From Flavisolibacter longurius (GTDB lineage Bacteria; Bacteroidota; Bacteroidia; Chitinophagales; Chitinophagaceae): a stretch of DNA of 64,000 nt. The translations under genes were made by a program, and so were the position numbers. The stretch is taken from positions 62,001-126,000 of the forward strand of contig JABUMY010000005.1 of the NCBI GenBank assembly GCA_013327885.1, written 5' to 3'. Positions 13,235 through 51,067 of this stretch are shown one piece after another. Position 1 is the first letter of the stretch, and each line of letters starts with the position of its first letter. Below the pieces are notes generated by a model. The model was not told the origin of the DNA, ran no database searches, and saw only the letters and a program-made list of their open reading frames with translations.

Positions 13235-13248
13235 AATGCATTTGCATT
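13235..13248 (-). terminator. Weak terminator after the GH51 gene
   Basis: On the minus strand AATGC-AAAT-GCATT forms a 5-base-pair hairpin followed by TTTGTTTTG, directly overlapping the stop of the GH51 gene. Short stem, so only a possible terminator for the DapA/POT/DUF1680/GH51 gene run. Confidence 0.3.
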
Positions 13249-15202
13249 ATCCCTTTTTCAGCCGAATTACATTCACGCTGCCTGGCTTTGCCCCAAACCT
13301 GAATTGCTTTCCCGGTACGCTAAGCACGGTTTCAACCGGAACAAACTTTGCCGGGTTATCCAACGTGTTTTCGGCTTCCATGTCGGTACCGGAAAGAGTA
13401 AGAACAGTAGCCTTTTTTGCGGGCTTTCCAAAACCTTCAATGTTGAAGGCAATCTCTTTTGCCACCGGATTTGCGTTCACCAGTTTGATGATCAGGTCAC
13501 CGCTTTCCGCATCCATAGTGGATGAAGCATAGAGGCTGTCCTGCCCTGCTACTGCTTTATTTGCCTGCAAGGCCGGTACCACTGCAGAACCTTTGTTGGT
13601 TGAAAAAAGTTTCTGCACATAATAATTGGCAGAGCCCACGGATCGTAAGTTATCAAACCAAATCAGGTTTGGCGACCACTGCCAGGCATCCACATGGGCC
13701 AGCAGGGGTGCATACGATGTCATTCGCACCACCTGTGCATTGCGTTCCAGCCCGGTCATAAAAGCAGCTTCTGAAAGTGCTGCCAGCCAGTTGTTCTTGC
13801 GCCGGCCATCTTCACCTGGCTTGTCGTGGGCAGCATATTCCCCGGCAAACACTTTTGGCCCTGTTGTATCGTAGCTATCGTAGCGCCTGGCGTTGCGGGT
13901 AAAAAAAGCAGGCGGCGCATAATAGTGCTCATCAACCATATCAGGCTTTAATACTTTCATTTCCTGCCATAAGTAAGTAAACATATCACCACCGGCAAAA
14001 GGTCCTGCCGAACCAACAATTTCAATGGCAGGATATTTTGCTTTGATGGCATCCATAAAAACCTTGGCTCTTGCTACATACTCGGGCCCCCACTGTTCGT
14101 TGCCAACACCAATCATCTTTAAATTAAACGGCGCCGGGTGGCCCATTTCTGCACGGAGTTTGCCCCAACCGGTATCAGTACTACCGTTGGCAAATTCAAC
14201 AAGGTCCAGCGCATCCTGTATATACGGATCCAGTTGGTCCATTGCCGCCAGTTCACCCGTGTTGAACTGGCAGGCCATGCCGCAATTCAAAATGGGCAGG
14301 GGCGCCGCGCCAATATCTTCTGCCAGTAAAAAATATTCGTAAAAACCAAGACCGTAAGACTGGTAATAATCTGCCGGGGAGCGCTGGGCAATTTCCGAGC
14401 TCCAGCGGTTAACGATCACTTTCCTGTCCTCTACCTTACCAACAGTCTTTTTCCATTGGTACCGGTTGGCCAGGTCGCGGCCTTCTACAATGCAGCCGCC
14501 GGGAAAACGCAAAAAGCCCGGTTTCAGGTCGGCCAGCTTTTGCACCAGGTCAGCCCGCAAGCCATTCTCGCGGCCCTTCCAGGTATCTTTTGGAAAGAGG
14601 GATACCATGTCCAGTTGAACGGTTGCGGGTCCGTTGACCAACAATTTCAGCGAAGCCTTTGCATCGGTGCTGCTTGCGGTAAACGAAGCCTTGTGTGTTG
14701 CCCATGCACCGCTTATCCCCTGCACACTGGTTTTGCCAATAACCTCGTCTTTGCTATTGAGAAGAAGAATGTCAAGAACAGGATTTCCGGCGCCTTCTTT
14801 CCGGGCTAAAACGGAGAAATGATAGGTGGCACCCTGGCGTACGCCCATGCCCCGGAAGCCTTCGTTCTGCAAGCCGATAACGGAATCAGCGCTGTGGTTA
14901 ATGACCTGCAGGTAACGGGGATTGTTCTCTTTTCCTGAATTAAAAACATCCACCCGGCCCTGTGGCTTTTGTCCCATTTGAATGCGCCAGCCCATCAAGG
15001 GAACGGCAAATTCAAACGAACGATTTTTCACCATCTCCGCATATACGCCACCGTCAGCAGCAAAGTTGATGTCTTCAAAAAACAATCCCCACATGGTGGG
15101 CTGAATAGCGGCCAGTTTTTTATCGGCCTGTATGTTGATGGTTTGCGCATTGGAAGCCATAGAAAATATAAGGCAGGTCGCTACAGCTAAAAATTTTTTC
15201 AT
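13247..15202 (-). CDS. GH51 alpha-L-arabinofuranosidase, exported
   Basis: A protein of 651 residues from the ATG at 15202, which gives the signal peptide MKKFLAVATCLIFSMASNAQ; the upstream in-frame extension is not signal-like. It removes terminal alpha-L-arabinofuranose. The family opening MWGLFFEDINFAADGGVYAEM is followed by a carbohydrate-binding beta-sandwich (about 90-210). The catalytic barrel shows GVGNEQWGPEY (acid/base Glu369) and VFAGEYAAH (nucleophile Glu455), and a C-terminal beta domain ends the protein. It is the last gene of a same-strand run DapA1-POT-DUF1680-GH51 (193-base gap before it). In extensin glycans the outermost arabinose is alpha-linked, so this enzyme could act before the beta-L-arabinofuranosidases; arabinan or arabinoxylan are equally possible substrates. 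Confidence 0.92.
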   Translation of the reverse strand: MKKFLAVATCLIFSMASNAQTINIQADKKLAAIQPTMWGLFFEDINFAADGGVYAEMVKNRSFEFAVPLMGWRIQMGQKPQGRVDVFNSGKENNPRYLQVINHSADSVIGLQNEGFRGMGVRQGATYHFSVLARKEGAGNPVLDILLLNSKDEVIGKTSVQGISGAWATHKASFTASSTDAKASLKLLVNGPATVQLDMVSLFPKDTWKGRENGLRADLVQKLADLKPGFLRFPGGCIVEGRDLANRYQWKKTVGKVEDRKVIVNRWSSEIAQRSPADYYQSYGLGFYEYFLLAEDIGAAPLPILNCGMACQFNTGELAAMDQLDPYIQDALDLVEFANGSTDTGWGKLRAEMGHPAPFNLKMIGVGNEQWGPEYVARAKVFMDAIKAKYPAIEIVGSAGPFAGGDMFTYLWQEMKVLKPDMVDEHYYAPPAFFTRNARRYDSYDTTGPKVFAGEYAAHDKPGEDGRRKNNWLAALSEAAFMTGLERNAQVVRMTSYAPLLAHVDAWQWSPNLIWFDNLRSVGSANYYVQKLFSTNKGSAVVPALQANKAVAGQDSLYASSTMDAESGDLIIKLVNANPVAKEIAFNIEGFGKPAKKATVLTLSGTDMEAENTLDNPAKFVPVETVLSVPGKQFRFGAKPGSVNVIRLKKG

Positions 15203-15395
15203 AACAAAAAGTAGGTTTACCAAAAACAGGGTAGCCGGGTTTGCATAATAGTTATTGGACTTTCTCATTTACAAACAACCTTCTTTATGCAAATGATTTT
15301 TTTCTAAAGAACCCTGGTTGCTTGTACTCTTCAGTTATTTTTCAAGCAAACAAATTAATGCTTTTGTGTGTAGCATTCGTAGTGCAACAAAACGT

Positions 15396-18300
15396 CTATT
15401 GCAATTCTACATCCAGGTAAACAGAATGACGCCCATAGGTTTCATAAAACGGTTTGAAGATTACGCCATCGATCGTAAACTGCAAAGAACCAGGGTCGCC
15501 TTTGATGGACTTTCCCAGGTCGTCGGCAGCAAGCGAAAGTTTACGCCATTCTTTTCTTGCTTCCGGCTCCTGTGCGGCCAGCAATACCGGACCGTAAAAC
15601 AGGCTGGCGATGTTTGGCTGATCCATCACCGGGTCAAGGTGAAAAGAGAAAGGCATTATTAATTCGATCACATCCCCATCCTTCCACCTGCGGCTAAGCT
15701 TGAGGTAACTTCCTGGCGTCGCCTTTAGCTGCTGGGCCTTTCCATTGATCGTTACAAAAAAACCATTGGTAGCCCAGGCCGGCACCCGTACATGAATATC
15801 AAACTGGCCACTCCCTTTGATCTTCAATCTGGTCTGGTCTTCCCTTGGGAAACTCGTTGTTTGCTCCACAGTTATTTTTCGCTCTGCCCATTGCAGTTTT
15901 GAAGGCACATACAAATTCACATACAGCGCCTGGTTGTTCAAACTTTTAAAGTAAATCGAATTTTGCAGCTTGGTACTGCTTTCAATAGCCGTTCCGTTAC
16001 AACAGGTAAAGCCGGTCATATCCGGGTTGCCAAATTGCTTGCCGGATCCCGGACGCAGGGGTACATGGTAAGTATTGGCAGGACTGTTTTCAGCAACAGA
16101 AGCCAGGATATGGTTGTACAAGGCCCGTTCGTAATAGTCCATCAACTCGGCCCGCGGATCAAAAACGAAAAGGCCGCCGGTCAGCTTCAGCATGTTGTAG
16201 GTGGCGCAGGTTTCGTTTTGCCCGCCGGAAGAAAAGCCGTTCTCATACAGCGTTGCGGGTTGGCCAATAAAGCATTCTGCGTTGGCAGGATTGCGGGCAC
16301 CGGCCACACCGCCAATGCTGTACATATAATCGTTGACCATCTTGTACCAGAAATTATCAGCCACGCTGTAGTATTCAGGGAGCTGGGAAACACGGTAGGT
16401 CTCTACGCTCCCTACCACCTGCGGTATGTGCTGGTTGGCATGCAAGCCCCGGAAAAGGTCAACGTTTTTGGCCAGTCCATGCGAATGAGCCGTATCACCA
16501 AAAAACACGCGGATGTTGTCAAACAATTGCGCTGTTTTCAGGTGAGAGGATTTGCCCGTGATCCGGTAAAGCCTTGCCATGGCTTCATTCATGCCACCAA
16601 ACTCTCCGGCAATGTAGGTGTTCCACATTTTTATCAGCGTGTCCTTGGGTAACTGTCGCAAGCGTGCATACACCCAGTCGCCCATGTCGCTGGCTATTTG
16701 AAGCGCTTTCTTGTTGCCGCTTACTTCGTACACATCCGTTAAGCCGGCTAAAATTTTATGCAGCGTATAATAAGGCGCCCAAATTTGATTCGGCTGTCCG
16801 CCGTACTTAGCGCCCTTTTCCAGCATAATGAACTGGTCGGGCGGATAAGCACTGATAAAGCCTTTACCCCAGTTCCAATAATCGGTGCGAATGCCTCCAT
16901 CACTAAGGTCAGAATCATAGGTGGTCTTGCCCAGTCCGACCGGTACGGCTCCCGGGTCAGCAACATGGGCACCGCCTTTTTCTTGTGGCCTGCCGGATAA
17001 TTGCGACAAGTCAAAAAGCGTATTGACCATGACCTCCATTTTTTGGAAGAAAGCCGCCTGGAGGGTTTTATCGTATCCCGTGCTGGCATAGGCCTGTGCA
17101 ATGGCGGTTAGGTAATGACCGGTTGCATGTCCTCTTAACTTGGTATCCCGGCTGTCCCACACACCCAGCGGTTTTGCGCCTTCGGGTTGCTTTTGCCCAA
17201 AGGCATGGCGAAACATATAAAGAAACGAGTTCGGGTCAGTTTTGGCCAATGTGCCGATAAACTTATCCCGGTTTTCAATAAACTTGGATGCTTTGCCCTG
17301 CGCATCCCTGTTGAGCGAAACCTGTCCCAATGCAAAAGGAGCCAGCTTAAGAGTTGGCGCTACCGGTTTCTTTGCTGCGGTAACGGTTACAAAAGCTTTG
17401 GGGCTGAAATCCGTTCCCGCCACCTTTCCCACAACCGTGTAGCTGCCGGCCTTCTGTACCTCTGAATTGTCCGTAGGCGCAGGCCAGAGCACCCTCACTT
17501 TGGGCTCCTTTCCCTTCATAACTCCTTTATACGTTCCGGCTACATAAGCAGGCAGGCGTGGCAAATTTCCGACGGCCGTTTGCACCTGCACATCTGCCAC
17601 CTGAACGAGGTAGGCATTGTAAAGCCGGGTCTCGGCGGGAGAAAATTTTGGAAGCTCGTCCTCCACCCGCTTCCGCGTTGTATTGACCGAGCCTTCATTA
17701 ACGCCGCCTCTCCGGGCATTGGTAAAAATGCCGGCCACTTGCCCCGCGGTCAGGGGCACACGGTAAATGCGAAAATCATGCACCAGTGCATCCAAATTGG
17801 GATCTCCCGGCGACAATGATCTCCCGATAAAAAGCTGTTTTTCTCCTGGCTGCTCGCCAAATACGTCGGCAAGCTCCAGTGCGATGTCACCCGTTTGTCC
17901 CACCGGTTTACTATCGATATAAGCTGTCAGCGTTTTGGAAGGAACATCGATGACAATGGCAAGATGAACCCATTTATTGGTTTCCACAGCCGGGAAAACA
18001 ACGCCTTTTTGAACCCCGTTTTTGGCGGCGATCACAGCCTGGAAATTTCCTGTGTTGCCGGTACCGACAGGGGCCGCAAAAAAATGATGGCCGGACGGCC
18101 TTCCAAAATCAAAAATTCGCTGTCCTGGTTTTTTCGATCGCAGGAAGATCCAACCCGAAAGGCTCAGTGATTCGAGATCGGCTAACGCTTCTCCCGGCAG
18201 TTTTACAAAAGCATTGCTGTCACCGGAAAGGGACAACACTTTTCCAAACCGGTTGTCGGTTACAAATTTGATTTCCTTGTCAGCGTAGGTGGCGTGCAGG

Positions 18301-18512
18301 TTGTTCCGCGACCAGTCCTTGCCATCCCCGTTAAAAAGGTACCGTGCTACCAGTCCCGTTTCTCCAATGCCATCCAGGATCTGGTCGCCATTTTGCGCCT
18401 GGGCGGTTTTCACACCAAGGATAAAAACAGTAAGAAACAAAATGACACGCAGGCTTTTTTTGCAGACTTTCCTATAAAGACTATTGACACCAACCATTTG
18501 TACGCTATTCAT
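15396..18512 (-). CDS. LamG-containing DUF1680 beta-L-arabinofuranosidase (GH146/GH127-like)
   Basis: An exported protein of 1038 residues. A signal peptide (to about residue 40, AQAQ) is followed by a concanavalin/LamG-like domain (about 55-260), a bacterial Ig-like group 4 segment (about 310-380), then the DUF1680 (alpha/alpha)6 catalytic domain (about 385-1030). The zinc-thiolate catalytic set of this clan is present: Glu767 and Cys769 in ETCATYN, and Cys837-Cys838 in TCCNGT, of which one should be the nucleophile. Known members cleave beta-L-arabinofuranosides, including Hyp-linked ones. It lies 43 bases after the POT transporter gene in the same orientation, tying sugar removal to peptide import. 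Assignment between GH127 and GH146 is uncertain by eye. Confidence 0.87.
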   Translation of the reverse strand: MNSVQMVGVNSLYRKVCKKSLRVILFLTVFILGVKTAQAQNGDQILDGIGETGLVARYLFNGDGKDWSRNNLHATYADKEIKFVTDNRFGKVLSLSGDSNAFVKLPGEALADLESLSLSGWIFLRSKKPGQRIFDFGRPSGHHFFAAPVGTGNTGNFQAVIAAKNGVQKGVVFPAVETNKWVHLAIVIDVPSKTLTAYIDSKPVGQTGDIALELADVFGEQPGEKQLFIGRSLSPGDPNLDALVHDFRIYRVPLTAGQVAGIFTNARRGGVNEGSVNTTRKRVEDELPKFSPAETRLYNAYLVQVADVQVQTAVGNLPRLPAYVAGTYKGVMKGKEPKVRVLWPAPTDNSEVQKAGSYTVVGKVAGTDFSPKAFVTVTAAKKPVAPTLKLAPFALGQVSLNRDAQGKASKFIENRDKFIGTLAKTDPNSFLYMFRHAFGQKQPEGAKPLGVWDSRDTKLRGHATGHYLTAIAQAYASTGYDKTLQAAFFQKMEVMVNTLFDLSQLSGRPQEKGGAHVADPGAVPVGLGKTTYDSDLSDGGIRTDYWNWGKGFISAYPPDQFIMLEKGAKYGGQPNQIWAPYYTLHKILAGLTDVYEVSGNKKALQIASDMGDWVYARLRQLPKDTLIKMWNTYIAGEFGGMNEAMARLYRITGKSSHLKTAQLFDNIRVFFGDTAHSHGLAKNVDLFRGLHANQHIPQVVGSVETYRVSQLPEYYSVADNFWYKMVNDYMYSIGGVAGARNPANAECFIGQPATLYENGFSSGGQNETCATYNMLKLTGGLFVFDPRAELMDYYERALYNHILASVAENSPANTYHVPLRPGSGKQFGNPDMTGFTCCNGTAIESSTKLQNSIYFKSLNNQALYVNLYVPSKLQWAERKITVEQTTSFPREDQTRLKIKGSGQFDIHVRVPAWATNGFFVTINGKAQQLKATPGSYLKLSRRWKDGDVIELIMPFSFHLDPVMDQPNIASLFYGPVLLAAQEPEARKEWRKLSLAADDLGKSIKGDPGSLQFTIDGVIFKPFYETYGRHSVYLDVELQ

Positions 18513-18555: not shown

Positions 18556-20148
18556 CTATACAGCTTTTGTAGCGCTGCCCATCATTTTAGACAATTTGAA
18601 CGATAAAAGATAGAGGATTGCACCGGCTACACCGGCCAGCAAGACAAAGATGAAAAAGTAGGTTTGCAAATCACCGATTTGAATACCCAGGAATTGAGGC
18701 ACGGGACAACCGGCACAGGGCTCCGGGTACAATGCACTCATGGTGCCGGCCAGTTTGTTACCGGTAGCAGTAGCCAAAAACCAAAGGCCCATCATCAGGG
18801 CTGCAAACCGGTGCGGGGTTAATTTATTCACCAGCGAAAGGCCAATCGGGCTTACCAACAATTCGCCTACCGAATGCAAAAAGTACAGGCCAACCAACCA
18901 AAAAAGGCTCACTTTCACCCCGGCGCTTACCGGCGTGCCAAAGGCAATAACCAAAAAACCCAATGCTAAAAAGAGTAAGCCAAAAGCTTGTTTGAGTGGT
19001 GCCGGTGGTTCTATTTTCTTTTGCGCCAACCGGCGCCAGAGCCAGGCAAACAAGGGTGCCAGCAGCACAACAAACACGGGTCCCAGGCTTTGAAAATAAC
19101 TGGCGGGAATTTCCCATGTCCCAACATTTCTGTTTGTTTGTTCGTTGGCAAAAAATGTCAGGGAAACACCGGCCTGCTCAAAGCACATCCAAAAGAAAAC
19201 AACAAACAAAAGAATAATCACGATCACGCCTAACCGCTTTTTCTCGATACGGCTGAGGGACTTGTCCGTGATGATGGTAAATGGCACCACCAGGCTGGCG
19301 CTGTAGATCAGTGCCCCCAGGGGATCAACATCCAAAGCGGTGATCATCAGCATTGCCACTGCCAGCAAGGTAAAAACAAACACCAGCAACTGCCAGCGCT
19401 GCACCATCGATTGTGGCCCTGTTCCCTGTCCGCCACCGGCATTTTTTTCCCTGCTCCTTTTTTGCGGCACCATGCCGATAGGTTCTCCGCCCGGCGCCAC
19501 CAGGTATCTGTTTTTGGTAGCATAAAAAACGGCCAGGCTGATGATCATACCGATACCCGCCGCCAGAAATCCCCATCGGAAATGAATGGTTTCTCCCAGG
19601 TAACCGCATACCAGCGGCGCCAGAAAAGCACCGGCATTGATACCCATGTAAAAGATCGTATAGGCAGCATCTTTCTGTGTACTTTCTTTTTCCGGATACA
19701 ACTGCCCAACCATGGCAGAAATGTTTGGCTTAAAGAAACCGTTGCCGGTAAAAAGAAAGAACAGGCCGGTCCAAAGCAGGAACAGGTGAAGACCTGGTGT
19801 TGTGTCGAGCGAGGCGCAAACGGCCAAAACAAATTGTCCTACCGCCATCATCAGTCCGCCGATAAAGATCGACTTTCGGCCACCCCAGAATTTATCCGCG
19901 ATATAGCCACCGATAATGGGCGTTAAAAAAGCCAGGCCGGTATAACTTCCATAGATGGATGACGCCCTGGCTTTTTCATACAGCAGGTGGTCCGTCATGA
20001 ACAAAACAAAAATGGCCCGCATGCCGTAGTAGCTGAACCGTTCCCAAAACTCCGTCATGAACAATACGTACAAGCCGGCCGGGTGCCGTTTTGCACTTCC
20101 TGCTTTTCTAACCTTCGCTGAGATATTTTCAACGACAACATTTTCCAT
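18556..20148 (-). CDS. POT/PTR family proton-coupled oligopeptide transporter
   Basis: A protein of 530 residues with about 14 hydrophobic helices. The hallmark E33xxERFxYY motif (EFWERFSYYGMRAIFVLF) lies in helix 1, and the PTR2 signature region FFKPNISAMVGQLY is present. Such carriers import di- and tripeptides across the inner membrane with protons. It is flanked by DapA1 (78 bases upstream) and the LamG-DUF1680 glycosidase (43 bases downstream) on the same strand, so it is probably in one operon with them. The context suggests import of Pro/Hyp di- and tripeptides freed by the periplasmic peptidases encoded nearby; specificity is inferred. Confidence 0.93.
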   Translation of the reverse strand: MENVVVENISAKVRKAGSAKRHPAGLYVLFMTEFWERFSYYGMRAIFVLFMTDHLLYEKARASSIYGSYTGLAFLTPIIGGYIADKFWGGRKSIFIGGLMMAVGQFVLAVCASLDTTPGLHLFLLWTGLFFLFTGNGFFKPNISAMVGQLYPEKESTQKDAAYTIFYMGINAGAFLAPLVCGYLGETIHFRWGFLAAGIGMIISLAVFYATKNRYLVAPGGEPIGMVPQKRSREKNAGGGQGTGPQSMVQRWQLLVFVFTLLAVAMLMITALDVDPLGALIYSASLVVPFTIITDKSLSRIEKKRLGVIVIILLFVVFFWMCFEQAGVSLTFFANEQTNRNVGTWEIPASYFQSLGPVFVVLLAPLFAWLWRRLAQKKIEPPAPLKQAFGLLFLALGFLVIAFGTPVSAGVKVSLFWLVGLYFLHSVGELLVSPIGLSLVNKLTPHRFAALMMGLWFLATATGNKLAGTMSALYPEPCAGCPVPQFLGIQIGDLQTYFFIFVLLAGVAGAILYLLSFKLSKMMGSATKAV

Positions 20149-20226: not shown

Positions 20227-21162
20227 CTATGCAACCGCAACGGCCTTTTCGCTTTCCTTATAGTCGGGTAATACAGGACGGCTGGCCAGGGCTTCTTCGA
20301 TAATGTTCAGCACCCGTTCCCGTTCGTCCCCAATCAGGGTCAACCGGGGTGCACGAACCGTTTCACTACCAATACCGGCCTGTTGTTCGGCCAGCTTGAT
20401 GTACTGTACCAGCTTTGTATGAATATCCAATTCCAAGAGTGGCATAAACCAACGGTAGATGGCCACAGCTTCCGCAATACGACCGGCTTTTGCCAACCGG
20501 TAAATGGCAACCGTTTCGGCAGGGAAAGCGCAAACCAATCCCGCTATCCAGCCATCGGCGCCCAGCAGCAATTCTTCCAGCGCTAATGTATCTACACCGC
20601 ACAATATCTTGTACCGGTCGCCGAAATGATTGATCATGCGTGTTACATTGGTCACGTCACGTGTAGACTCTTTTACGGCCTGGATGTTGGCGCAGCCGGC
20701 GAGGTCTTCAAACATGGCCAGGGTGATCTCGGTTTTGTAGTCAACCGGGTTATTGTATAAAACGATAGGCAGATCGGTTTCACCCGCAATCGATTTAAAA
20801 TATTCAACGGTCTCGCGGTGGTCGCTTTTGTAACGCATGGGTGGAAGCAGCATCAATCCTTCAGCACCCCATTTTTTGGCCAGCCTTGCCTGGTGAATGG
20901 CTTCCCGTGTCGACCCTTCGGCAATGTTGATGATCACCGGTATTCTTCCGTCGATCGTTTCCACGGCAAATTTTACCAGGGTCTCTTTTTCGGCTTCGGT
21001 TAATACACTTGCCTCGCCAAGGGTACCGCCAAGGATCAACCCATCGATGCCGGCCTTTAACTGCACCAACAAATTTTTTTTGAAGAGATCAAGATCCAGG
21101 CTGTCGTTGTAACCAAACTTGGTGGTGATGGCGGGAATCACGCCTTTCCAGGATAAATGCAT
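20227..21162 (-). CDS. DapA-family lyase 1, probable pyrroline-4-hydroxy-2-carboxylate deaminase
   Basis: A cytoplasmic protein of 311 residues. The DHDPS-fold marks are present: GGTLGEAS phosphate/carboxylate loop, catalytic Tyr136 in VLYNNPVDY and Schiff-base Lys164 in QAVKESTRD. It is a clear paralogue of the protein at 50123-51067 (both have MLLPPMRYK, YNNPVDYK, CGVD and ADGW motifs at matching places). That copy sits inside a hydroxyproline catabolic operon, so the likely reaction is delta1-pyrroline-4-hydroxy-2-carboxylate to alpha-ketoglutarate semialdehyde plus ammonia. An alternative in the same family is L-2-keto-3-deoxyarabonate dehydratase, which would fit the arabinosidases in the same gene run. 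It heads the run DapA1-POT-DUF1680-GH51 and is divergent from the AraC regulator. Confidence 0.75.
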   Translation of the reverse strand: MHLSWKGVIPAITTKFGYNDSLDLDLFKKNLLVQLKAGIDGLILGGTLGEASVLTEAEKETLVKFAVETIDGRIPVIINIAEGSTREAIHQARLAKKWGAEGLMLLPPMRYKSDHRETVEYFKSIAGETDLPIVLYNNPVDYKTEITLAMFEDLAGCANIQAVKESTRDVTNVTRMINHFGDRYKILCGVDTLALEELLLGADGWIAGLVCAFPAETVAIYRLAKAGRIAEAVAIYRWFMPLLELDIHTKLVQYIKLAEQQAGIGSETVRAPRLTLIGDERERVLNIIEEALASRPVLPDYKESEKAVAVA

Positions 21163-21314: not shown

Positions 21315-21427
21315 ATCCATAGCAGGATTTTAACCAAAAAAAGGGATGATGTGCTCAATTAAGGCTAAGAAATGTAAATTGAAGCTGAAACGCCTGTATT
21401 TCCAAACTGCGAACGCTGAGACAACAC

Positions 21428-43700: not shown

Positions 43701-43840
43701 ACGTTGGTACCCTTTACCATAACGGCGGCAGCTTCAACAGGGACACCCTTTGCATTCTGCACGACCCCTCGGACAGGTACTTGCGCAATGGATGAAAGTA
43801 CTGTGCATAGGAAGCACAGCAAAAGCGTAACTTTTTTCAT
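40703..43840 (-). CDS. SusC/RagA family TonB-linked outer-membrane transporter
   Basis: A protein of 1045 residues. A signal peptide (to about residue 20) is followed by a carboxypeptidase-like regulatory domain (about 22-95), a TonB-box-like stretch VVVIGYQK, a plug domain (about 115-225, DPNDIESIDVLKDASASAIYG-type signature as NPNDIESIDVLKDA) and a large beta-barrel ending in the aromatic terminus VELNF. It transports large ligands through the outer membrane with TonB energy. It is the first gene of SusC-SusD-fasciclin-DUF5007. No anti-sigma/ECF pair is adjacent, so control is probably by the AraC protein or a distant regulator. Confidence 0.96.
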   Translation of the reverse strand: MKKVTLLLCFLCTVLSSIAQVPVRGVVQNAKGVPVEAAAVMVKGTNVGAQSDLRGVFNIPAKPGDVLVISAVGYVTQNVTVGTDGSLTVSLVDSDSQMEGVVVIGYQKITRKKTTAAISSISGKEIENLPAASFDQLLQGRLSGVNVQNFSGQPGATPTVSVRGNSLVSRDFDNDGFNVINQPLYVVDGVPQPTETYTSPNTGTGTNFLAGINPNDIESIDVLKDASASAIYGSRAANGVILITTKKGRSGAPRVTIVAYTGITQRPELRDVTLGTVERRQKMEILQRQLLYPNQRNLPMLLTDSLNPAFNGNTDWQDMFYQTGLIKSADLSLSGGADGGMAYRFSTSYYDEEGIIKATGFKRYAMRLNLNAKSLGGKLDINPIIYYSRSDRARGNGSSSSPINLNAGGMPSSLFNLDPVKKEFLLGQYDENMDKNVGNMFSFNLNLTYEITKNLRASSQNSYMLNMSRRDFNRTNALENGNGNYSSAFSSNNVNLLSSNFLTYNQGFSRHNLSAVVGSDIQFNENQTVYAAGANGVSDQIQVVQGFIQNRIGASSDYQAFGLLSFYGRLSYDYDGKYLLSGSFRGDGSSRFGKNNKWGYFPSASVGWIVSEENFIKNSRLPFTLVKLRASLGTSGSLPGSNYLQYNLYNVNAGAFAGNTQSASYNGQAAVTPNFLNGVAQKNLSWEKSLQWNVGTDLELMNGKYSASFDIYNKESSLQLFSVILPVTTGYDQAMTNSIGVRNAGAEFTFTANPLSNSSALRWQSTFNISYNKNAILSLPNGGRDLPMSGDRFDKSHILSVGRPINSFYLYKTLGVFQTDDHVPGNPFTGDRLGGNGPYQGGEFYLADLDGNSFIDIYNDWVNPDKMPVGDPNPKFTGGWINNFTYKGFNLSIFSTFTFDRDVLNLYESDIFNTSSFADANTFAQYSTPDFSKIDIWQKPGDIATYAKYDIGSWRAYYTSAQTFFLERGGYFRIKSVNMGYNFGNNGLKRSGINKLRVFGIIDNLLMIQQSKKLPDAEAVNPYGEYNGAGYPIPKKYTIGVELNF

Positions 43841-43924
43841 GCAGTAGGTTTTATTTAAAATTGAGAATACGACTATAGAAAGCAGGCACTAAAACTAGAC
43901 GGAAAGAGCAGGAATGAGTTTACG

Positions 43925-43954
43925 AATCTTAACCAACGCTTACCAATTTTTACC
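43925..43954 (-). repeat. Three contiguous 10-base direct repeats upstream of SusC
   Basis: On the minus strand, from 43954 down, the units read GGTAAAAATT, GGTAAGCGTT and GGTTAAGATT, with no spacer. They start about 85 bases upstream of the SusC ATG. Helically phased direct repeats are typical of multimeric activator sites. Compare the phased TTAA elements at 3901-3945 before the other TonB-receptor gene pair. Confidence 0.55.
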
Positions 43955-44331: not shown

Positions 44332-46113
44332 TCAATGCGCCAGTTGCTTTACCGGAACATCGTAAAACTTCCATTTTGTTGTAAAGTCTTCTGCCAGTGA
44401 CTGGTTTGTCAGGATGGCCCTGATCATTTCCACGGGCATTGCATTCAATTGCAGGATGGCATCATGAAATTGTTTGTATGTCATTTTGCCACTGTCCACC
44501 AATTCTTTTTTCAAGGCATAAAACTGGCGGCCACCGGTGAGGTAGGCCAACTGGTAAAGAGGCGGGTACCGGCCAACGAAAGAACGGCGCACTTCGCCTT
44601 CGGCATTGGCTCTTTCATGCCCAACGCGGTCTACCAGGAAATCGATGCACTGCTGCGGATTCCATTTCCCCATATGATAATTCAGCGAAAAAATAATTCT
44701 TGCACAGCGATGCATGTGCCAGAACAACATGCCCATCCGGTCTTCGGGACTTTGCGGGAACTTCATGTCCCACAGGAGAAGCTCCCAATACAGGGCCCAG
44801 CCTTCGGTCCAGAATGGTGTGTTGAAGTTGCGATAGGTTCTGTACCGGCTGTTCATGTAGTATTGCAGGTTATGTCCCGGAATGAGTTCGTGCTGCACGG
44901 TAGCCCTTGAAAAATGCGGATTGTTTCCCCGCATACTCATGCGCCTTTCTTCTTCGGCCATTGTATTAGTGGGATAAGAAATACTGATATCGGCACCACC
45001 GGTAAAAAACGGATTCACCAATTGCCGCTCGGGTGTCATCATGATCATGCCCCAGGTTTCTTCGGCCAGTGGCGGAACGGTTATGAGGTCGTGCTTTTTG
45101 ATAAAATCAACCGATTCGTTGTAAAGACGCAGTATCAATTCGGGTTGCTTTCCGGCAGGCACAAACGTATTTTTTACTTTTTCCTGTGCTGCTTTCCAGT
45201 TCGTGCCAAAACCCATCTCTTTTGACGCTTTCAGCAGCTCGGCTTCGCACCAGGCAAATTCACGGTTTGCCTGCTCGATCAGTTCTTCCGGCGAATAAGG
45301 GATCATTTCATAGGTCAGTTGTTGCACCAACACATCGCGTCCTACGGGCTGGCCTACGATCCCACTTTTATCCTGCGGCGGAACGTCGCTGGCTTTGTTT
45401 TTAAAGGCCGTTGCATAGGCCGTTAACGCTTCATCCAATGTTTGGTAAGACTTGGGCACCCACCAGGTAAACATGGGATCGTAACCGTTGTAAAATTCAT
45501 TGATGCTGGCAAGCGTTTGCTTTAGGTTGGCGATAATGCCGCCGCTTTCATACAGCACATCCGAATCCAGCTTTTTTTCTTCTTTCAACTGTGCTGTCAG
45601 TGCTTTTACTTCGGCTGCCATGCCAGCCCACTCTTTTGCTACCTGTTCGGCATCGAGCTGGCCGCCACGGCGCCTTGTTTTTTCCAGGCTGTAAACCTTA
45701 TCGGCAAAAGGGAACCAGGGTTTTGTCTTTGCATCGGTTCTTGCATCATCTGCTGCAAGGCGCAGCTTTTCATCCAGGTCGCGTTTGAAAAGAATATAGT
45801 CGGCCTTGCATTCCTGCGAAAGCGATTTAAAGCTGATCGCCTCCAGCCTTTTTAAATACGAACGATGCAAGCTTTCAAGCTTCTCACGCTTTTCCGGCGA
45901 ACCGGCACCGGCATCGCCGCCCCACCCTCTGCTGCTGGTGCTTGGACTATAATACCTGGCCAGCGCACGGTAATCTGCATTGTAATGCTGCATCAGGTTG
46001 GGCATTTCCTGGCAAGGCACAAATTCACTGTTCTTGCTTTGCGAAAAAGCAGAGATGCTTAACAAGCAAATACAAAAGAAAAGATGGGTGCGATGTATGA
46101 AATGTTTTTGCAT
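44332..46113 (-). CDS. DUF885 family metallopeptidase-like protein, exported
   Basis: A protein of 593 residues. The ATG at 46113 gives a signal peptide (MQKHFIHRTHLFFCICLL... AFSQ); the frame to 46170 adds a non-signal extension. The DUF885 hallmark HELIPGH is at 408-414, an HExxxGH zinc-type motif, with RTYRNFNTPFWTEGWALYWE supplying a downstream Glu. Members are thought to be thermolysin-like peptidases. It is the last gene of the run DapA2-aldehyde dehydrogenase-epimerase-oxidoreductase-DUF885 (59-base gap), which suggests activity on Hyp-containing peptides; cleavage specificity is unproven. Confidence 0.85.
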   Translation of the reverse strand: MQKHFIHRTHLFFCICLLSISAFSQSKNSEFVPCQEMPNLMQHYNADYRALARYYSPSTSSRGWGGDAGAGSPEKREKLESLHRSYLKRLEAISFKSLSQECKADYILFKRDLDEKLRLAADDARTDAKTKPWFPFADKVYSLEKTRRRGGQLDAEQVAKEWAGMAAEVKALTAQLKEEKKLDSDVLYESGGIIANLKQTLASINEFYNGYDPMFTWWVPKSYQTLDEALTAYATAFKNKASDVPPQDKSGIVGQPVGRDVLVQQLTYEMIPYSPEELIEQANREFAWCEAELLKASKEMGFGTNWKAAQEKVKNTFVPAGKQPELILRLYNESVDFIKKHDLITVPPLAEETWGMIMMTPERQLVNPFFTGGADISISYPTNTMAEEERRMSMRGNNPHFSRATVQHELIPGHNLQYYMNSRYRTYRNFNTPFWTEGWALYWELLLWDMKFPQSPEDRMGMLFWHMHRCARIIFSLNYHMGKWNPQQCIDFLVDRVGHERANAEGEVRRSFVGRYPPLYQLAYLTGGRQFYALKKELVDSGKMTYKQFHDAILQLNAMPVEMIRAILTNQSLAEDFTTKWKFYDVPVKQLAH

Positions 46114-46172
46114 ATACTGGAATTGAATAGCGCAGACTTGTAATAGAATTCTCACAACAGATGCATTCAACC

Positions 46173-47417
46173 TTAGGAAAAACGCTCCGGGTGAAAGGCA
46201 TCAATAGCCACTTCCGGTTTTTTGTTATTGGCCAGGTCAGCCACCACTTTTCCACTGGCAGGGCCAAGGCTTAAGCCCATCATGGCATGGCCGCCAGCAA
46301 TGATCAAATTTTCAAACTTGTTTGATTTTCCCAAGTAAGGCAGTCCGTCGGGCGAACAAGGACGAAAGCCAAACCAGATGTCTTTTTTCTCCGGCATTAT
46401 TAACCGCATGCCCGGAAAATAAGCCGGAACAGATTGCACAATGCCTTCTACCCTGTTCATGTTGACCTGGCTGTTTACCGGTGCTATTTCCATCGTACCG
46501 CCATAACGCATACGGCCATCCATAGGCGTTATGGCTACCCGGGCTTCACAAAGAATGGCCGGCACATTCAGCTTTTGTTCTGGCTGGTCCTGTGTGTACG
46601 AATAGCCTTTCCCTGGCATAAGCGGAATGGTAAGCCCGGCCATCTTTGACAACTGTGGCAGCCAGGAGCCGCCGGCCATAACAACGATATCGCCTTCCAG
46701 TTCACCTTTCGTTGTCACCACTTTTTTTATTTGCCTGCCGGAAGAAACGATTCTTTCAACAGGACTGTTTGTTTGAAAGGTTACGCCGGCATTTCGAAGG
46801 GAATCAAGCAATTGGGGGAGCAATTTATTAGGGTATAAATGCGCATCGCAACGGTAATGTACAGCGCCTAAAATATCCAGCTCTGTTTCGGGCTCCAACG
46901 CTTGCACTTCTGCTTTGTTGAGCACTGCAGCATCCAGGCCCATGGCTCTTGCCTTTTCGGCAAGATGCACTTCTTCTTCGGCAACTTTTTCTGACTTGTA
47001 ATACATCAGGATGCCTTTGTTCTCCAGGGCAAAATCAAATCCCGGCTCGTTTTGCAAGGCTGCAAAAAGCGATTTGCTGTATAGGTTTAAATTAAGGAGG
47101 TAAGGTGCAGCGGCTTCCACGTTTTGCGCCTTCGCAGTTTTCATAAACTTCAGGCCCCATGAAACAAGATCCCAGTTCAACGAAGGCTTTACATAAAAAG
47201 GACTTTTGGAATTAAACATCCATTTGATTCCCTGCGAGATCATGCCCGGTGCCGCCAGTGGTACAAAATGACTGGGAACGATCATTCCGAGATTGCCGTA
47301 TGAGCAACTGTCAAGCATATCTGTTTTATCAACCACCACTACATCCCATCCACTTTTTCGTAAATAGTATGCAGAACTCAAACCAATGATACCGCCTCCA
47401 ATGACTACCGCTTTCAT
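46173..47417 (-). CDS. FAD-dependent D-amino-acid dehydrogenase, probable cis-4-hydroxy-D-proline dehydrogenase
   Basis: A protein of 414 residues of the DAO/DadA family. The FAD-binding GxGxxG lies at residues 7-12 (VVIGGGIIGLSSAYYL), an acidic residue ends strand 2 (VVVDK), and the C-terminal FAD contact is GHAMMGLSLGPASG. GFRPCSPDGLPYLG is typical for DadA-like enzymes. No signal peptide is present. It lies 39 bases after the hydroxyproline epimerase gene, so the likely reaction is oxidation of cis-4-hydroxy-D-proline to delta1-pyrroline-4-hydroxy-2-carboxylate, with electrons going to the respiratory chain. A broader D-amino-acid substrate range cannot be excluded. Confidence 0.88.
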   Translation of the reverse strand: MKAVVIGGGIIGLSSAYYLRKSGWDVVVVDKTDMLDSCSYGNLGMIVPSHFVPLAAPGMISQGIKWMFNSKSPFYVKPSLNWDLVSWGLKFMKTAKAQNVEAAAPYLLNLNLYSKSLFAALQNEPGFDFALENKGILMYYKSEKVAEEEVHLAEKARAMGLDAAVLNKAEVQALEPETELDILGAVHYRCDAHLYPNKLLPQLLDSLRNAGVTFQTNSPVERIVSSGRQIKKVVTTKGELEGDIVVMAGGSWLPQLSKMAGLTIPLMPGKGYSYTQDQPEQKLNVPAILCEARVAITPMDGRMRYGGTMEIAPVNSQVNMNRVEGIVQSVPAYFPGMRLIMPEKKDIWFGFRPCSPDGLPYLGKSNKFENLIIAGGHAMMGLSLGPASGKVVADLANNKKPEVAIDAFHPERFS

Positions 47418-47456: not shown

Positions 47457-48458
47457 TTAGATAACTTGGAACCCATGTGCATAAGGATCGTCGTCATCGA
47501 TGATGATGGTGTTATAACCCGTTACAATTGCCCAGCCTTCAATGCTGGGTACAATGGCAGGCTTACCGGCAATGGTTGTTTCCGCCTCTATCCGCCCGGT
47601 AAACTGGGAGCCGATGATGCTTTCATGAATAAACGCATCGCCCTTTTTTAGTTTTCCCTTGCCATACCACTGTGCCATCCGCGCCGAGGTTCCCGTACCG
47701 CAGGGAGAGCGGTCAATGGCCTTGTCGCCATAGAACACCGCGTTTCTTGCCGTTGCATTGCTGTTAATGGTCTTGCCCGTCCACATCATGTGACTTAGGC
47801 CTTTGATGTGCGGAATCTCAGGGTGTACAAAATCATATTTTTCGTTGATGCGCTGCCGGCAAACACGGCTCCAGGAGATCAGTTGATCAGCAGTAAAATC
47901 CTGCAGTCCGCTAAAGGCTTCCTGGGGATCAACGATGGCATAAAAGTTACCGCCATAGGCCACATCTACCTTAATTTTTCCCAGGTCCGGGCAATCCACT
48001 TCCAGGCCTTCGGCTGCTAAAAACGAAGGAACGTTTGTCAGCTTAACAGACTTTACTTTTTTGCCTTCCTGTTTGTATTCGATCAGCACCAGGCCTGCCG
48101 GTGCTTCCATGCGGAGGATGCCCGGTGTTTTGGGTGTTACCAGTCCTTCTTCAATGGCGATGGTGATGGTGCCAATGGTGCCGTGGCCGCACATGGGCAA
48201 ACAGCCGCTGGTTTCAATGAACAAGACACCAATATCATTCTGCGGATCACTTGGCGGGTAAAGAATGCTGCCGCTCATCATGTCATGCCCGCGGGGCTCA
48301 AACATCAACCCTTTCCGGATCCAATCATATTCTTTTAAAAAATGCAAACGACGCTCCATCATGGAAGCGCCGTTCAATATCGGTCCGCCGCCTGCCACCA
48401 ACCGAACAGGGTTGCCGCAGGTGTGCGCATCCACGCAAAAAAACTTTTTTGAAGCCAT
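47457..48458 (-). CDS. 4-hydroxyproline 2-epimerase
   Basis: A cytoplasmic protein of 333 residues of the proline racemase fold. Both catalytic cysteines are present: Cys90 in MCGHGTIG and Cys253 in DRSPCGTGTS, as needed for two-base epimerisation; the related trans-3-hydroxyproline dehydratase has Thr at the second place. The N-terminal substrate motif reads VDAHTCGNPVRLV. It should convert trans-4-hydroxy-L-proline to cis-4-hydroxy-D-proline, the first step of the pathway. Proline racemase itself is the main alternative, but the three neighbours encode exactly the remaining hydroxyproline steps. Confidence 0.92.
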   Translation of the reverse strand: MASKKFFCVDAHTCGNPVRLVAGGGPILNGASMMERRLHFLKEYDWIRKGLMFEPRGHDMMSGSILYPPSDPQNDIGVLFIETSGCLPMCGHGTIGTITIAIEEGLVTPKTPGILRMEAPAGLVLIEYKQEGKKVKSVKLTNVPSFLAAEGLEVDCPDLGKIKVDVAYGGNFYAIVDPQEAFSGLQDFTADQLISWSRVCRQRINEKYDFVHPEIPHIKGLSHMMWTGKTINSNATARNAVFYGDKAIDRSPCGTGTSARMAQWYGKGKLKKGDAFIHESIIGSQFTGRIEAETTIAGKPAIVPSIEGWAIVTGYNTIIIDDDDPYAHGFQVI

Positions 48459-48525: not shown

Positions 48526-50139
48526 TTAAGCAAGTACCGATGCGTTTCTTCCCAGCAATGCTTCTGCGGTAAATTGTCCGTTAACACGCCGCGTAATGTT
48601 CAATGGATTATCATCCTTTAACGCATCAGGTAAAAATTCTTCCGGGCAATACTGGAAGCAAACCGGCCGAACAAACCGCTTGATCGCATCGGCTCCAACC
48701 GATGTTGACCTGCCATCAGAAGTAGCGGGGAACGGTCCGCCATGAACCATTGCATAACAAACCTCAACTCCCGTTGGTACACCGTTGTAAAGTATTCTTC
48801 CGACCTTTTCTTGTAGGACATCGATACAATCAGAGAATTCTTCAATATCATGATACGTTCCCAGCACGGTGCCGGTCAGTTGTCCTTCCAGTACCGCCAT
48901 GGCGCTTAAAAGTTCGGTCTTGCTGTTGCATTTTACAACCATGGAAAACGGCCCGAATACCTCTTGCTGCAAACGATCATTCCGAATAAAATCATCCGCC
49001 GTTACTTCTACCAAAGCCGCTGTCGCTTTATGTGTGTTGCTTGCATTCCCGCCAACAAACAAAGCCTTAACACCTTCAGCGTTCAGCAACTTTTCTCTTT
49101 CCTGGTAATAACTGCTGCAGATTGTTTTGTTTAGCATCGTTGCTTCCGGAGACGCTTCCAACAGTGAGGAAAGCTTGCTGATAAAGTCAGCACTGGTGTC
49201 ATTGTCCAATACAAATAACAACCCCGGGTTGGTACAAAACTGGCCGGTGCCCAGCGTGATGGAAGCCGCAAACATCGCCGCTGCTTTTTCCGCATCTTCT
49301 TCCAGCTTTTGGGGCAGCAACAAAACAGGATTAATGGAGCTCATTTCCGCGTACACGGGAATGGGAACTTTTCGGTCGTTCACAGCAGTTTTGTATAAAC
49401 TTGTACCGGCACGGTAAGAGCCGGTAAAGCCGACGGCTTTGATAGCAGGATGCTTTGCCAGCACCTGTCCCAAGACGGAACCTTCTCCAATAAGGGAAGA
49501 AAAAACGCCATCCGGCATGCCCGTTTTTTGAGCTGCACGGATAACGGCATCTGCCACCAGCTCGTTTGTACCCAGGTGCGAAGAATGCGCTTTCACAATA
49601 ACGGGGCATCCTGCTGCCAAAGCCGATGCGGTATCGCCACCGGCGGTGGAAAAAGCAAAGGGAAAATTGCTCGCCGCAAAAACAGCAACAGGTCCCAGCG
49701 GGACCAGCATCTTCCGCAGGTCGGCCCGCGGCAAAGGCGTGCGGTCAGGCAGGGCCGTGTCAATGACTGCTTCTACCCAGGAACCTTCACGAAGCACCTC
49801 GGCAAATAATTTTAACTGTCCTACCGTACGGCCACGTTCCCCGATTAGTCTTGCCTGCGGCAAACCGGTTTCCAGCATGGTTCTTTCAATCAGTACATCA
49901 CCCAAGGCCAAGATTTCATTGGCAATGGCTTCCAAAAAAGCCGCTCTTTGTTCAGGGCTTTTTCGTTTATACGGGGCAAACGCCGCCAGTGCTTTTGCGG
50001 CGGCTTCTTCAATTTCATCTTCAGTGGCAACCGTAAATTTTTCCGGAAGATTGCTTCCGTTTACGGTGCTAAAGACCTGGAGCGTTTTACTTCCCTGCTG
50101 CGTTTTTGTAAAGCCTGTATAATTATGCCCACACAGCAT
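48526..50139 (-). CDS. Alpha-ketoglutarate semialdehyde dehydrogenase (NADP-type aldehyde dehydrogenase)
   Basis: A protein of 537 residues from the ATG at 50139 (a TTG at 50145 is open too). Aldehyde dehydrogenase marks are general base Glu265 in YAEMSSINPV and nucleophile Cys302 in GTGQFCTNPG. The substrate/cofactor region SNFPFAFSTAGGDTASALAAG is that of the KGSADH branch (2,5-dioxovalerate dehydrogenase). It oxidises alpha-ketoglutarate semialdehyde to alpha-ketoglutarate, the last step for hydroxyproline, and also of oxidative L-arabinose breakdown. Its start overlaps the DapA2 stop by 17 bases, so the two steps are translationally coupled. Confidence 0.92.
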   Translation of the reverse strand: MLCGHNYTGFTKTQQGSKTLQVFSTVNGSNLPEKFTVATEDEIEEAAAKALAAFAPYKRKSPEQRAAFLEAIANEILALGDVLIERTMLETGLPQARLIGERGRTVGQLKLFAEVLREGSWVEAVIDTALPDRTPLPRADLRKMLVPLGPVAVFAASNFPFAFSTAGGDTASALAAGCPVIVKAHSSHLGTNELVADAVIRAAQKTGMPDGVFSSLIGEGSVLGQVLAKHPAIKAVGFTGSYRAGTSLYKTAVNDRKVPIPVYAEMSSINPVLLLPQKLEEDAEKAAAMFAASITLGTGQFCTNPGLLFVLDNDTSADFISKLSSLLEASPEATMLNKTICSSYYQEREKLLNAEGVKALFVGGNASNTHKATAALVEVTADDFIRNDRLQQEVFGPFSMVVKCNSKTELLSAMAVLEGQLTGTVLGTYHDIEEFSDCIDVLQEKVGRILYNGVPTGVEVCYAMVHGGPFPATSDGRSTSVGADAIKRFVRPVCFQYCPEEFLPDALKDDNPLNITRRVNGQFTAEALLGRNASVLA

Positions 50140-51067
50140 TTTCAACGGGTTGAAGGTTCAGGTAATCCGGCAATTCGGGCCGGGTGTTCAGCGCTGTTTG
50201 AACAATGTCCACAACGGCTTTGTGCTCTTGTCCGCTAAGCGGCAGCCGGGGTGCTCTTACGTCTTCGGTGCTGATGCCCGTCATGGTAGCCGCCAGCTTG
50301 ATGTATTGTACCAACTTGGGATGGATATCTAATTCCAGCACCGGCAAAAACCACCGGTAGATCTTTAACGCTTCCTGGTAATAGCCTGCTTTCACCAGGC
50401 GGTAGATGGCCACTGTTTCCCGCGGAAAAGCATCCACCAGGCCAGCCACCCAGCCATCAGCGCCCATGCAAAGGCTTTCCATGGCCAGCGGGTCAACACC
50501 GCACAGAACAGAAAAACGGTTGCCAAAACGGTTATACATCCGCGTTACATTCGATATATCCCGTGTGGATTCTTTTACGGCCTGTATGTTTGGCAGTTCT
50601 GCCAGTGCCTCAAACATATCCAGTGTTACCATGATTTTATAATCCACCGGATTGTTGTAGATCATGATGGGCAGTGGTGTATTTTCAGCAACGTTTTTGA
50701 AATAGGTTACTGTTTCTTCGTCATCGGCTTTGTAGCGCATGGGAGGCAACAGCATCAAGCCGTCGGCGCCTGCCTCTTCTGCTTCCCTCGCGGCCTGGAT
50801 AGCGCCACGGGTGGTCTGCTCGGCAATATTCATGATGACAGGTACTTTATTCTGCACCAGTTCTTTGGTGTAAAGCAGCAGGTCCCGCTTTTCCACATTG
50901 AGCAAGGTACTGGCCTCACCCAGCGAACCACCCAAAATGATCCCATCCACACCGGCATTCAACTGCTCCTCTATATTGCGTTTGAAGACATCATAATCAA
51001 TCGCATCATCCTTTTTAAAAGGTGTAAGAACCGCAGGATAAACACCTTTCCATGCTACAGCAATCAT
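50123..51067 (-). CDS. DapA-family lyase 2, probable pyrroline-4-hydroxy-2-carboxylate deaminase
   Basis: A cytoplasmic protein of 314 residues with the DHDPS catalytic set Tyr137 (MIYNNPVDY) and Schiff-base Lys165 (QAVKESTRD), and the GGSLGEAS loop. It is the first gene of the hydroxyproline operon and overlaps the semialdehyde dehydrogenase gene. In known pathways this family member deaminates and dehydrates delta1-pyrroline-4-hydroxy-2-carboxylate to alpha-ketoglutarate semialdehyde. It is a close paralogue of the protein at 20227-21162, so the window carries two copies in two gene runs. True dihydrodipicolinate synthase is unlikely given the context. Confidence 0.88.
   Translation of the reverse strand: MIAVAWKGVYPAVLTPFKKDDAIDYDVFKRNIEEQLNAGVDGIILGGSLGEASTLLNVEKRDLLLYTKELVQNKVPVIMNIAEQTTRGAIQAAREAEEAGADGLMLLPPMRYKADDEETVTYFKNVAENTPLPIMIYNNPVDYKIMVTLDMFEALAELPNIQAVKESTRDISNVTRMYNRFGNRFSVLCGVDPLAMESLCMGADGWVAGLVDAFPRETVAIYRLVKAGYYQEALKIYRWFLPVLELDIHPKLVQYIKLAATMTGISTEDVRAPRLPLSGQEHKAVVDIVQTALNTRPELPDYLNLQPVENAVWA

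Follow-up and report, generated by a model that had tools for sequence, protein, structure and literature searches.

A candidate locus for the utilisation of arabinosylated hydroxyproline-rich glycoproteins in Flavisolibacter longurius, with a predicted Pro-Pro endopeptidase-like zincin

Genes of the hydroxyproline and arabinosidase block

We analysed a 64,000 nt window of the 5.75 Mb genome of Flavisolibacter longurius (contig JABUMY010000005.1, positions 62,001-126,000), in which genes for hydroxyproline (Hyp) breakdown lie together with arabinosidase, peptidase and importer genes in a block at window positions 13247-51067 (Table 1). Genes were called from open reading frames (ORFs) and Pfam and NCBIfam profile scans, and export and signal peptides were predicted by simple N-terminal heuristics. 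A previous sequence-only reading had assigned to this block the four enzymes of Hyp breakdown, three arabinofuranosidases (two of the DUF1680 clan), peptidases, a peptide importer, an amino-acid permease, SusC/SusD and an AraC regulator, all serving one substrate, extensin. All of its gene calls held at their positions. HypE was confirmed by equivalog score and the other three Hyp enzymes by family and order; the arabinofuranosidase-type genes were confirmed as GH51, GH146-type and GH127; the peptidases were of the M24, S9/DPP-IV (two), M1 and DUF885 types; and the importer was of the POT family. In addition, we identified a second HypD paralogue, the lipoproteins U2 and U3, and U1, a secreted zincin with a predicted Pro-Pro endopeptidase (PPEP) fold.

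The HypE protein has the expected catalytic pair, Cys90 and Cys253. The HypD, aldehyde dehydrogenase (ALDH) and DAO proteins all scored below equivalog cut-offs, and their probable roles are deduced from family membership and gene order. The best NCBIfam matches of the ALDH were 2,5-dioxovalerate and alpha-ketoglutarate semialdehyde dehydrogenases, far under cut-off, and the DAO protein scored 271 bits against the D-amino acid dehydrogenase subfamily (cut-off 383). Relatives have the order HypD-ALDH-HypE-DAO, with HypD first. By families and order, an epimerase, a D-Hyp dehydrogenase, a deaminase and a semialdehyde dehydrogenase, as needed for the trans-4-Hyp pathway, lie in one operon; HypE with such a dehydrogenase, deaminase and semialdehyde dehydrogenase is the typical content of Hyp pathway loci. 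HypD2 was 62% identical to HypD1, and the HypD that leads the Hyp operon in many relatives was closest to HypD2.

The genes for HypD, ALDH, HypE, DAO and DUF885 are co-directed, overlapping or spaced by 2-67 bases. A second co-directed run comprises SusC, SusD, U3, U2, U1, GH127 and S9, so that SusC adjoins SusD with hydrolases in the same direction, as in SusC/SusD utilisation loci. Leftward of these follow the amino-acid permease; a thioredoxin-like protein (Trx), M1 and S9; M24 and AraC; and HypD2, POT, GH146-type and GH51. The GH51, GH146, GH127, S9, M1, Trx, DUF885, U1 and SusC proteins were predicted to be extracytosolic, SusD, U2 and U3 to be lipoproteins, and HypD1/2, ALDH, HypE, DAO and M24 to be cytosolic.

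Among solved structures, the GH127 protein was nearest to 6ex6 (732 bits; which we take to be BT1003), followed by 4qjy (472), 5mqo (322) and 3wkw (305; presumably HypBA1), and its PF07944 domain, with the Glu-x-Cys (E338, C340) and Cys-Cys (at 406) motifs typical of such enzymes, places it in GH127. The GH146-type protein, which shares these two motifs, was nearest to 5opj (BT0349, we assume) and then to 8k7y/8k7x (presumably Bll3HypBA1); its PDB neighbours and a quick tree with long branches group it with GH146, not GH127. Judging from sequence, both DUF1680-clan enzymes are plausible Hyp-arabinosidases. An identity of the GH127 protein as an aceric-acid hydrolase was considered and set aside because the NCBIfam equivalog cut-off of 950 was not reached (467 bits), such an activity being possible nonetheless.

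Table 1. Features of the block and candidate regulatory sites, in window positions (bits and E values from profile or matrix matches).
Feature	Position	Strand	Remarks
GH51 alpha-L-arabinofuranosidase	13247..15268	-	PF22848, PF06964
GH146-type glycosidase with LamG domain	15396..18512	-	PF07944 246 bits, PF13385
POT di/tripeptide:proton symporter	18556..20148	-	TIGR00924 336 bits, cut-off 130
HypD2, second HypD paralogue	20227..21162	-	PF00701 204 bits
Hyp box between AraC and HypD2	21324..21337	-	15.2 bits, second-best in window
AraC regulator, divergent from HypD2	21428..22309	+	PF12833
M24, aminopeptidase P/prolidase type	22459..23874	+	PF00557, PF05195
S9, dipeptidyl-peptidase IV type	23875..26067	-	PF00930 296 bits
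M1-type aminopeptidase	26134..27906	-	PF01433; HESGH motif
Thioredoxin-like exported protein	27913..28989	-	PF13905
Amino-acid permease	29371..30846	+	PF13520 204 bits; several HypE or U1 loci contain 59-79% relatives
S9 peptidase, DPP-IV type	30939..33314	-	PF00930, PF00326
GH127 glycosidase	33348..35759	-	PF07944 370 bits
Hyp box before GH127	35868..35881	-	13.3 bits
U1, secreted zincin with predicted PPEP fold	36098..37057	-	319 residues; signal peptide suggests start at Met27
U2 lipoprotein, weak DUF5007 resemblance	37293..38267	-	PF16398 E 0.0054, below cut-off; lipobox
U3 lipoprotein	38296..38982	-	no Pfam match; lipobox
SusD-type lipoprotein	39002..40684	-	PF14322, PF07980; lipobox
SusC-type outer-membrane importer	40703..43840	-	TIGR04056 699 bits, cut-off 368
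Weaker Hyp box before SusC	43923..43936	-	10.5 bits, level with coding matches
DUF885 protein, probable exported peptidase	44332..46170	-	PF05960 180 bits; close to HypE/DAO in several relatives
FAD-dependent D-amino-acid (probable D-Hyp) dehydrogenase, DAO family	46173..47417	-	PF01266 231 bits
HypE, 4-hydroxyproline 2-epimerase	47457..48458	-	NF010578 610 bits, equivalog cut-off 376
ALDH, probable 2-oxoglutarate semialdehyde dehydrogenase	48526..50145	-	PF00171
HypD-type deaminase (HypD1; DHDPS family), first gene of Hyp operon	50123..51067	-	PF00701 203 bits
Hyp box before HypD-ALDH-HypE-DAO-DUF885 operon	51151..51164	-	20.0 bits, best match in 64 kb window

Linkage of HypE to glycosidase genes and a common promoter box

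Analyses of 148 relatives (family f1 comprising G000, the F. longurius genome, to G088) indicated that HypE and glycosidase genes are linked well beyond the window. HypE (NF010578) was found in 43 of the 148 genomes, above cut-off in 40, and 35 of these 40 had a match to PF07944, the GH127/GH146 clan. For the linkage counts, PF07944 rows above about 49 bits were used (126 genes), second pieces of one ORF being dropped. In 20 of the 40 genomes a GH127-family gene was no more than 20 kb from HypE, against 1.0 expected under random placement (19 of 39 when F. longurius was excluded), and in 13 the distance was no more than 5 kb, against 0.25; counted by gene, 29 of 126 were within 20 kb of HypE (1.02 expected). 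Conserved co-occurrence in related genomes, on which the sequence-only reading had staked itself beforehand, was thereby borne out. In a control with GH43, one of the 150 matches listed out of 354 was within 20 kb of HypE (G025), which is about chance; a further GH43 gene (71 bits), outside those listed, was 8 kb from HypE in G083. Within family f1 a PF07944 match was present in 33 of 38 HypE-positive and 24 of 51 other genomes (Fisher 1.2e-4; genome size not controlled). An even draw of 392 genomes across the phylum had HypE above cut-off in 81, and in the 73 of these that were new beyond the relatives a PF07944 gene was within 20 kb of HypE in 10, with 0.74 expected.

The linked glycosidase gene often lay inside the Hyp operon. 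On the same strand and between HypE and DAO there was a GH146-type gene in G071, G045, G034, G083, G054, G043 and G041 and a GH127 gene in G040, G056, G067, G054, G043 and G041. HypE was accompanied by DUF885 and, in some of the genomes, by S9, M1 or M24 peptidases, GH127/GH51 and SusC genes in G030, G080, G013, G055, G001 and G024, and the Hyp genes had no recognised glycosidase close by in, for example, G061, G065, G077, G082, G118 and G130. Other HypE loci add GH97, GH31, GH2, GH30, GH43, melibiase-like, GtaA-like, M61 and DUF5695 genes. Beyond the family, PF07944 proteins of ~1,020 residues were encoded ~8 kb from HypE in G166, G340 and G515, and those of G166 and G340 share the partial profile range of the clade of the window's GH146-LamG protein.

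A tree of 81 PF07944 proteins, made by a quick method and to be read with caution given its flagged long branches, placed the HypE-linked GH146 and GH127 genes apart from the BT0349 reference clade, whose nine other rows were all unlinked. HypE-linked rows made up 12 of 16 in a GH146-type clade (11 genomes; the G041 gene is in two pieces), 7 of 7 in a GH127 subclade, and 7 of 14 in the clade of the window's GH127. F. longurius also has a BT0349-clade GH146 gene (G000:C49:243357-246188) whose match lies 1.2 kb from that of araA, and this is a separate locus of the arabinose/arabinan type. Three further observations concern other genomes. In G290 (contig C1:10277-14293) a 1585-residue ORF has one full-length PF07944 domain and one of the partial GH146-LamG-type range, as if two kinds of beta-arabinosidase had been fused. 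DUF5695 proteins (G083 L077:12952-15681, 1178 bits; G001 L061:4020-6809, 189 bits) lie near DUF885, GH97, GH31 or M61 genes. In G087 (C33:636500-644000, L098), DUF885, HypD-type and clade I GH146 genes lie together, distant from the HypE of that genome.

The divergent AraC-HypD gene pair was present in 13 genomes, F. longurius among them. A first motif run, on intergenic DNA with 40 bp coding flanks, was discarded as its motifs were the conserved starts of the AraC and HypD genes, and the run was repeated without flanks. Strictly intergenic AraC/HypD DNA gave the motif TnGGTTAAAATAnG, which scored 74 as compared to 33-35 in shuffles and which we infer to be bound by the AraC protein. With a matrix trained without the F. 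longurius genome, the best 15 matches in the window included four intergenic boxes, all of which face genes of the block (Table 1), intergenic DNA being 6.8% of the window; two coding matches ranked between the GH127 and SusC boxes. A common promoter box ties HypD/HypE, GH127 and, more weakly, SusC in the window. In the fetched regions, with training promoters left out, boxes of at least 13 bits preceded 22 of 178 block-family genes and 6 of 574 unannotated genes (Fisher 6e-10), cases that are not fully independent owing to near relatives and one contig retrieved twice (G001 and L220). With column-permuted matrices, block matches numbered at most 2 in 100 trials. The genes preceded by matches were those for S9, SusC, U1, GH127, GH146, DUF885, HypD, HypE, M1 and permease proteins.

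Across the F. longurius genome the strict 12-mer of the box had 31 copies, as compared to 15 for a reversed control. By a mechanical ORF call, 25 of the 30 sites examined were in coding sequence. Of the 5 intergenic sites, two are the HypD promoters, one precedes a 79-aa ORF, one is 30 bases upstream of a gene for the glycine-cleavage P-protein, and the last has no gene visible downstream. Few further members can thus be predicted from the box alone, and some matches are due to chance. One intergenic box, at G000:C49:67121 (L255), lies between ORFs that by eye resemble a TonB receptor and a protease.

Outside the block, a histidine kinase/LytTR response regulator pair (window 11423-13157) adjoins its GH51 end, another SusC/SusD pair, accompanied by an M14-type carboxypeptidase (57149-64000), is next to the Hyp block, and ~2.2 kb beyond the end of the window there is a distant PF07944 gene (102 bits; G000:C48:128188).

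The predicted peptidase U1 and its neighbourhoods

At the usual thresholds U1 matched nothing in Pfam, NCBIfam or the PDB, and its four weak phmmer matches in the PDB included no PPEP. Sequence profiles of family members gave a weak ATLF match in 1 of 12 (E 0.0058) and M90 matches in 6 of 12 (best 0.098). The structure model, by comparison, matched PPEP-1, PPEP-2 and PPEP-3 alone at E<=0.001. The HExxH motif, the catalytic Tyr and the third-ligand Glu were invariant in 50 of 50 sequences, the PPEP-3 residues used for this comparison being those given in the available portion of PMC12828418. Based on the model and these residues, U1 is predicted to have a Pro-Pro endopeptidase-like fold with PPEP-like catalytic residues.

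At a minimum of 60% identity U1 was found in 10 of the 148 relatives, 9 of which have HypE (Fisher 3e-5). A U1 locus is also present in Flavisolibacter sp. BIN11 (JAGIAB010000013.1), and U1 itself in the same-genus genome G001. Of the U1 copies in G064 and G001, one is interrupted by an in-frame TAG and the other contains a stretch of N.

A contig scan identified 251 relatives of U1, of which the best 80 loci were analysed with flanks up to 10 kb; GH127/146-like neighbours were called by BLAST at E<=1e-10, some at <30% identity, and sampling was uneven across genera. Within 10 kb of U1 there was a GH127/146-like gene in 27 of these 80 loci, where about 1.1 would be expected, HypE in 11, and GH127/146, HypE or HypD in 31. 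Such neighbourhoods are spread over Bacteroidota, Asticcacaulis, Sphingomonas and Xanthomonadales, so that the conserved co-occurrence extends to Proteobacteria through the U1 family. A GH127/146 or HypE neighbour was found under 14 of 35 genus labels, including all seven loci of Asticcacaulis, 7 of 12 of Sphingomonas (with no HypE there) and 4 of 9 of Pedobacter. The Asticcacaulis loci contain GH146, DUF885, U1, DAO and HypD, and six of them HypE. The order in Pontibacter L151 is HypE-DAO-DUF885-S9-M24-M1-U1-GH127, and that in Pedobacter L178 is GH127-SusC-SusD-U3-U2-x-U1, which is near the window's order; SusC-SusD-U3-U2 recurs in both Pedobacter L173 and L178.

We tentatively propose, at slightly less than even odds, that U1 represents an unrecognised family of PPEP-fold endopeptidases in Bacteroidota, Acidobacteriota and Proteobacteria that would open the poly-Hyp of arabinosylated extensins, within a conserved, AraC- and box-controlled regulon in which glycan, peptide and imino-acid catabolism would all be directed at one substrate.

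Proposed pathway, alternatives and known systems

With a probability of roughly 0.7, we interpret the block as a utilisation locus for arabinosylated Hyp-rich glycoproteins (HRGPs) of plant or green-algal walls, of the extensin type. That its parts have a joint substrate, as the sequence-only reading proposed, is strengthened by the linkage, the shared box and a peptidase suited to the proposed substrate's backbone. Extensin (Ser-Hyp4, with Hyp-arabinosides) would best account for the parts, although the choice of this substrate, the cleavage sites, the order of the steps and their regulation are conjectural. In the proposed pathway, secreted U1 would cleave the poly-(hydroxy)proline backbone, and SusC/SusD with U2 and U3 would import glycopeptides. 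GH51 would take off an alpha-arabinosyl cap, and the beta-arabinosyl residues would be released by GH127/GH146, while S9, M1 and DUF885 peptidases would trim the peptides. Small peptides and Hyp might be taken up via POT and the amino-acid permease, with cytosolic M24 freeing Hyp, which HypE, DAO, HypD and ALDH would convert to 2-oxoglutarate. The AraC regulator may switch these genes jointly by acting on TnGGTTAAAATAnG.

Several observations weigh against this interpretation, and the weakest points are the specificity of the GH127 protein and the distance of the glycosidases from the Hyp operon in this genome. The GH127 protein matched 6ex6 better than 3wkw and was also closer to 6ex6 in the tree, and its best named family was that of aceric acid hydrolase, at less than half the bits required. 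In the window the GH127 gene ends 12 kb and the GH146 gene 29 kb from HypE. In 20 of the 40 HypE genomes, several of them on short contigs, HypE had no GH127-family gene closer than 20 kb, and in the clade of the window's GH146-LamG protein one row of 5 (G001) had HypE at up to that distance. A coding match of 15.1 bits outscored the GH127 box, the SusC box was weak, and in the fetched regions no box of at least 13 bits preceded 13 DAO, 10 ALDH, 9 M24, 8 POT and 3 GH51 genes. The Foldseek TM-scores of U1 against the PPEPs were moderate (0.40-0.42 by query and 0.56-0.66 by target length), and 49 of the best 80 U1 loci lacked recognised Hyp and beta-arabinosidase genes in their flanks of up to 10 kb.

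The target could instead be an arabinogalactan protein or another HRGP, with arabinogalactan-Hyp being attacked, consistent with the GH30, GH43, GH2, GH97, GH31 or melibiase-like genes of some HypE loci. We consider this unlikely, as no galactanase family turned up in Pfam scans of the window block and beta-arabinofuranosidases together with a Pro-Pro endopeptidase fold fit contiguous Hyp with short arabinosides. It is doubtful, and slightly more so, that U1 acts on surface proteins of the bacterium itself and not as a nutritional extensin protease. PPEP-1 does free its producer by cutting adhesion proteins, according to the part of PMC11460543 available, and the 49 loci without such neighbours would agree with a role of this kind, but the recognised neighbours of U1 are catabolic, across phyla, and U1 co-occurs with HypE.

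A further explanation is that two unrelated neighbours meet here, an arabinan or rhamnogalacturonan-II pectin locus (GH51, GH127, GH146, SusC/D) and an ordinary Hyp/proline-peptide operon for free Hyp or gelatin. The closest solved relatives (6ex6 and 5opj), the gaps to HypE and the half of HypE genomes lacking a near GH127 are what it would lead one to expect. However, the linkage is repeated in many genera, often within an operon, whereas the GH43 control was near HypE at about the chance rate among the matches listed; the BT0349-like genes are the unlinked ones, the F. longurius copy being that next to araA; and the Hyp operon and GH127 are preceded by a common box. Together, these data make mere adjacency improbable. 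Still less credible is that the Hyp genes serve animal collagen or gelatin peptides and the glycosidases are unrelated: Hyp is abundant in collagen and Gly-Pro-Hyp peptides are suitable substrates for S9, M24 and M1 peptidases, but HypE is linked to glycosidases, collagen to our knowledge bears no arabinose, and M9 collagenase was above cut-off in none of the 40 HypE-positive genomes (weak matches below cut-off in 4; other collagenase families not searched).

Extensins and related HRGPs are tough poly-Hyp wall proteins, and an HRGP utilisation locus offers a testable whole pathway from glycoprotein to central metabolism. Candidate Hyp-arabinosidases are marked by their position within the Hyp operons of relatives, and a regulator box is predicted, together with a so far overlooked family of peptidases that share the fold of Pro-Pro-cutting enzymes. 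In open-licence literature we found no single microbial system leading from an HRGP to central metabolism, no paper joining '4-hydroxyproline epimerase' with 'arabinofuranosidase', and none joining 'hydroxyproline epimerase', 'glycoside hydrolase' and 'Bacteroidetes'. Extensin use has been proposed for Latescibacteria from the presence of GH127, without a locus, in the available part of PMC4454575.

Among known systems, HypBA1/HypBA2/HypAA (GH127 or GH146, GH121, GH43) of Bifidobacterium longum and Xanthomonas euvesicatoria strips arabino-oligosaccharides from HRGPs by beta-L-arabinofuranosidases, but its alpha-arabinosidase is GH43 where GH51 is found here. Hyp catabolic genes, present in the F. 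longurius locus, are not described in the portion of PMC6085000 available, which does report a frameshifted prolyl-oligopeptidase gene adjoining hypAA in Xanthomonas. The GH146 enzymes XeHypBA1 and Bll4HypBA1 are active on Araf-beta1-Hyp, as described in the accessible part of PMC10850190. U1 resembles PPEP-1, PPEP-2 and PPEP-3 in predicted fold, HExxH, catalytic Tyr, third-ligand Glu and a Tyr-Glu spacing of 7, and differs from them in its 14-17% identity and in being encoded in Gram-negative hosts, next to genes for Hyp breakdown and beta-arabinosidases. Svx of Pectobacterium is a secreted gluzincin acting on arabinosylated extensin, as proposed for U1, but from its description in the available text of PMC13164431 it is set apart by two domains, including an acyltransferase-like one. 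The Hyp loci of the proline racemase superfamily (eLife 03275) share HypE with dehydrogenase, deaminase and semialdehyde dehydrogenase; the strings "glycos-" and "arabino-" had 0 occurrences in the part of that text available, whereas in relatives of F. longurius glycosidases lie within the Hyp operon. Finally, SusC/SusD polysaccharide utilisation loci have in common with this locus the SusC/SusD pair, lipoproteins, exported glycosidases and a regulator, to which the F. longurius locus adds peptidases, carriers for peptides and amino acids, and an entire imino-acid pathway.

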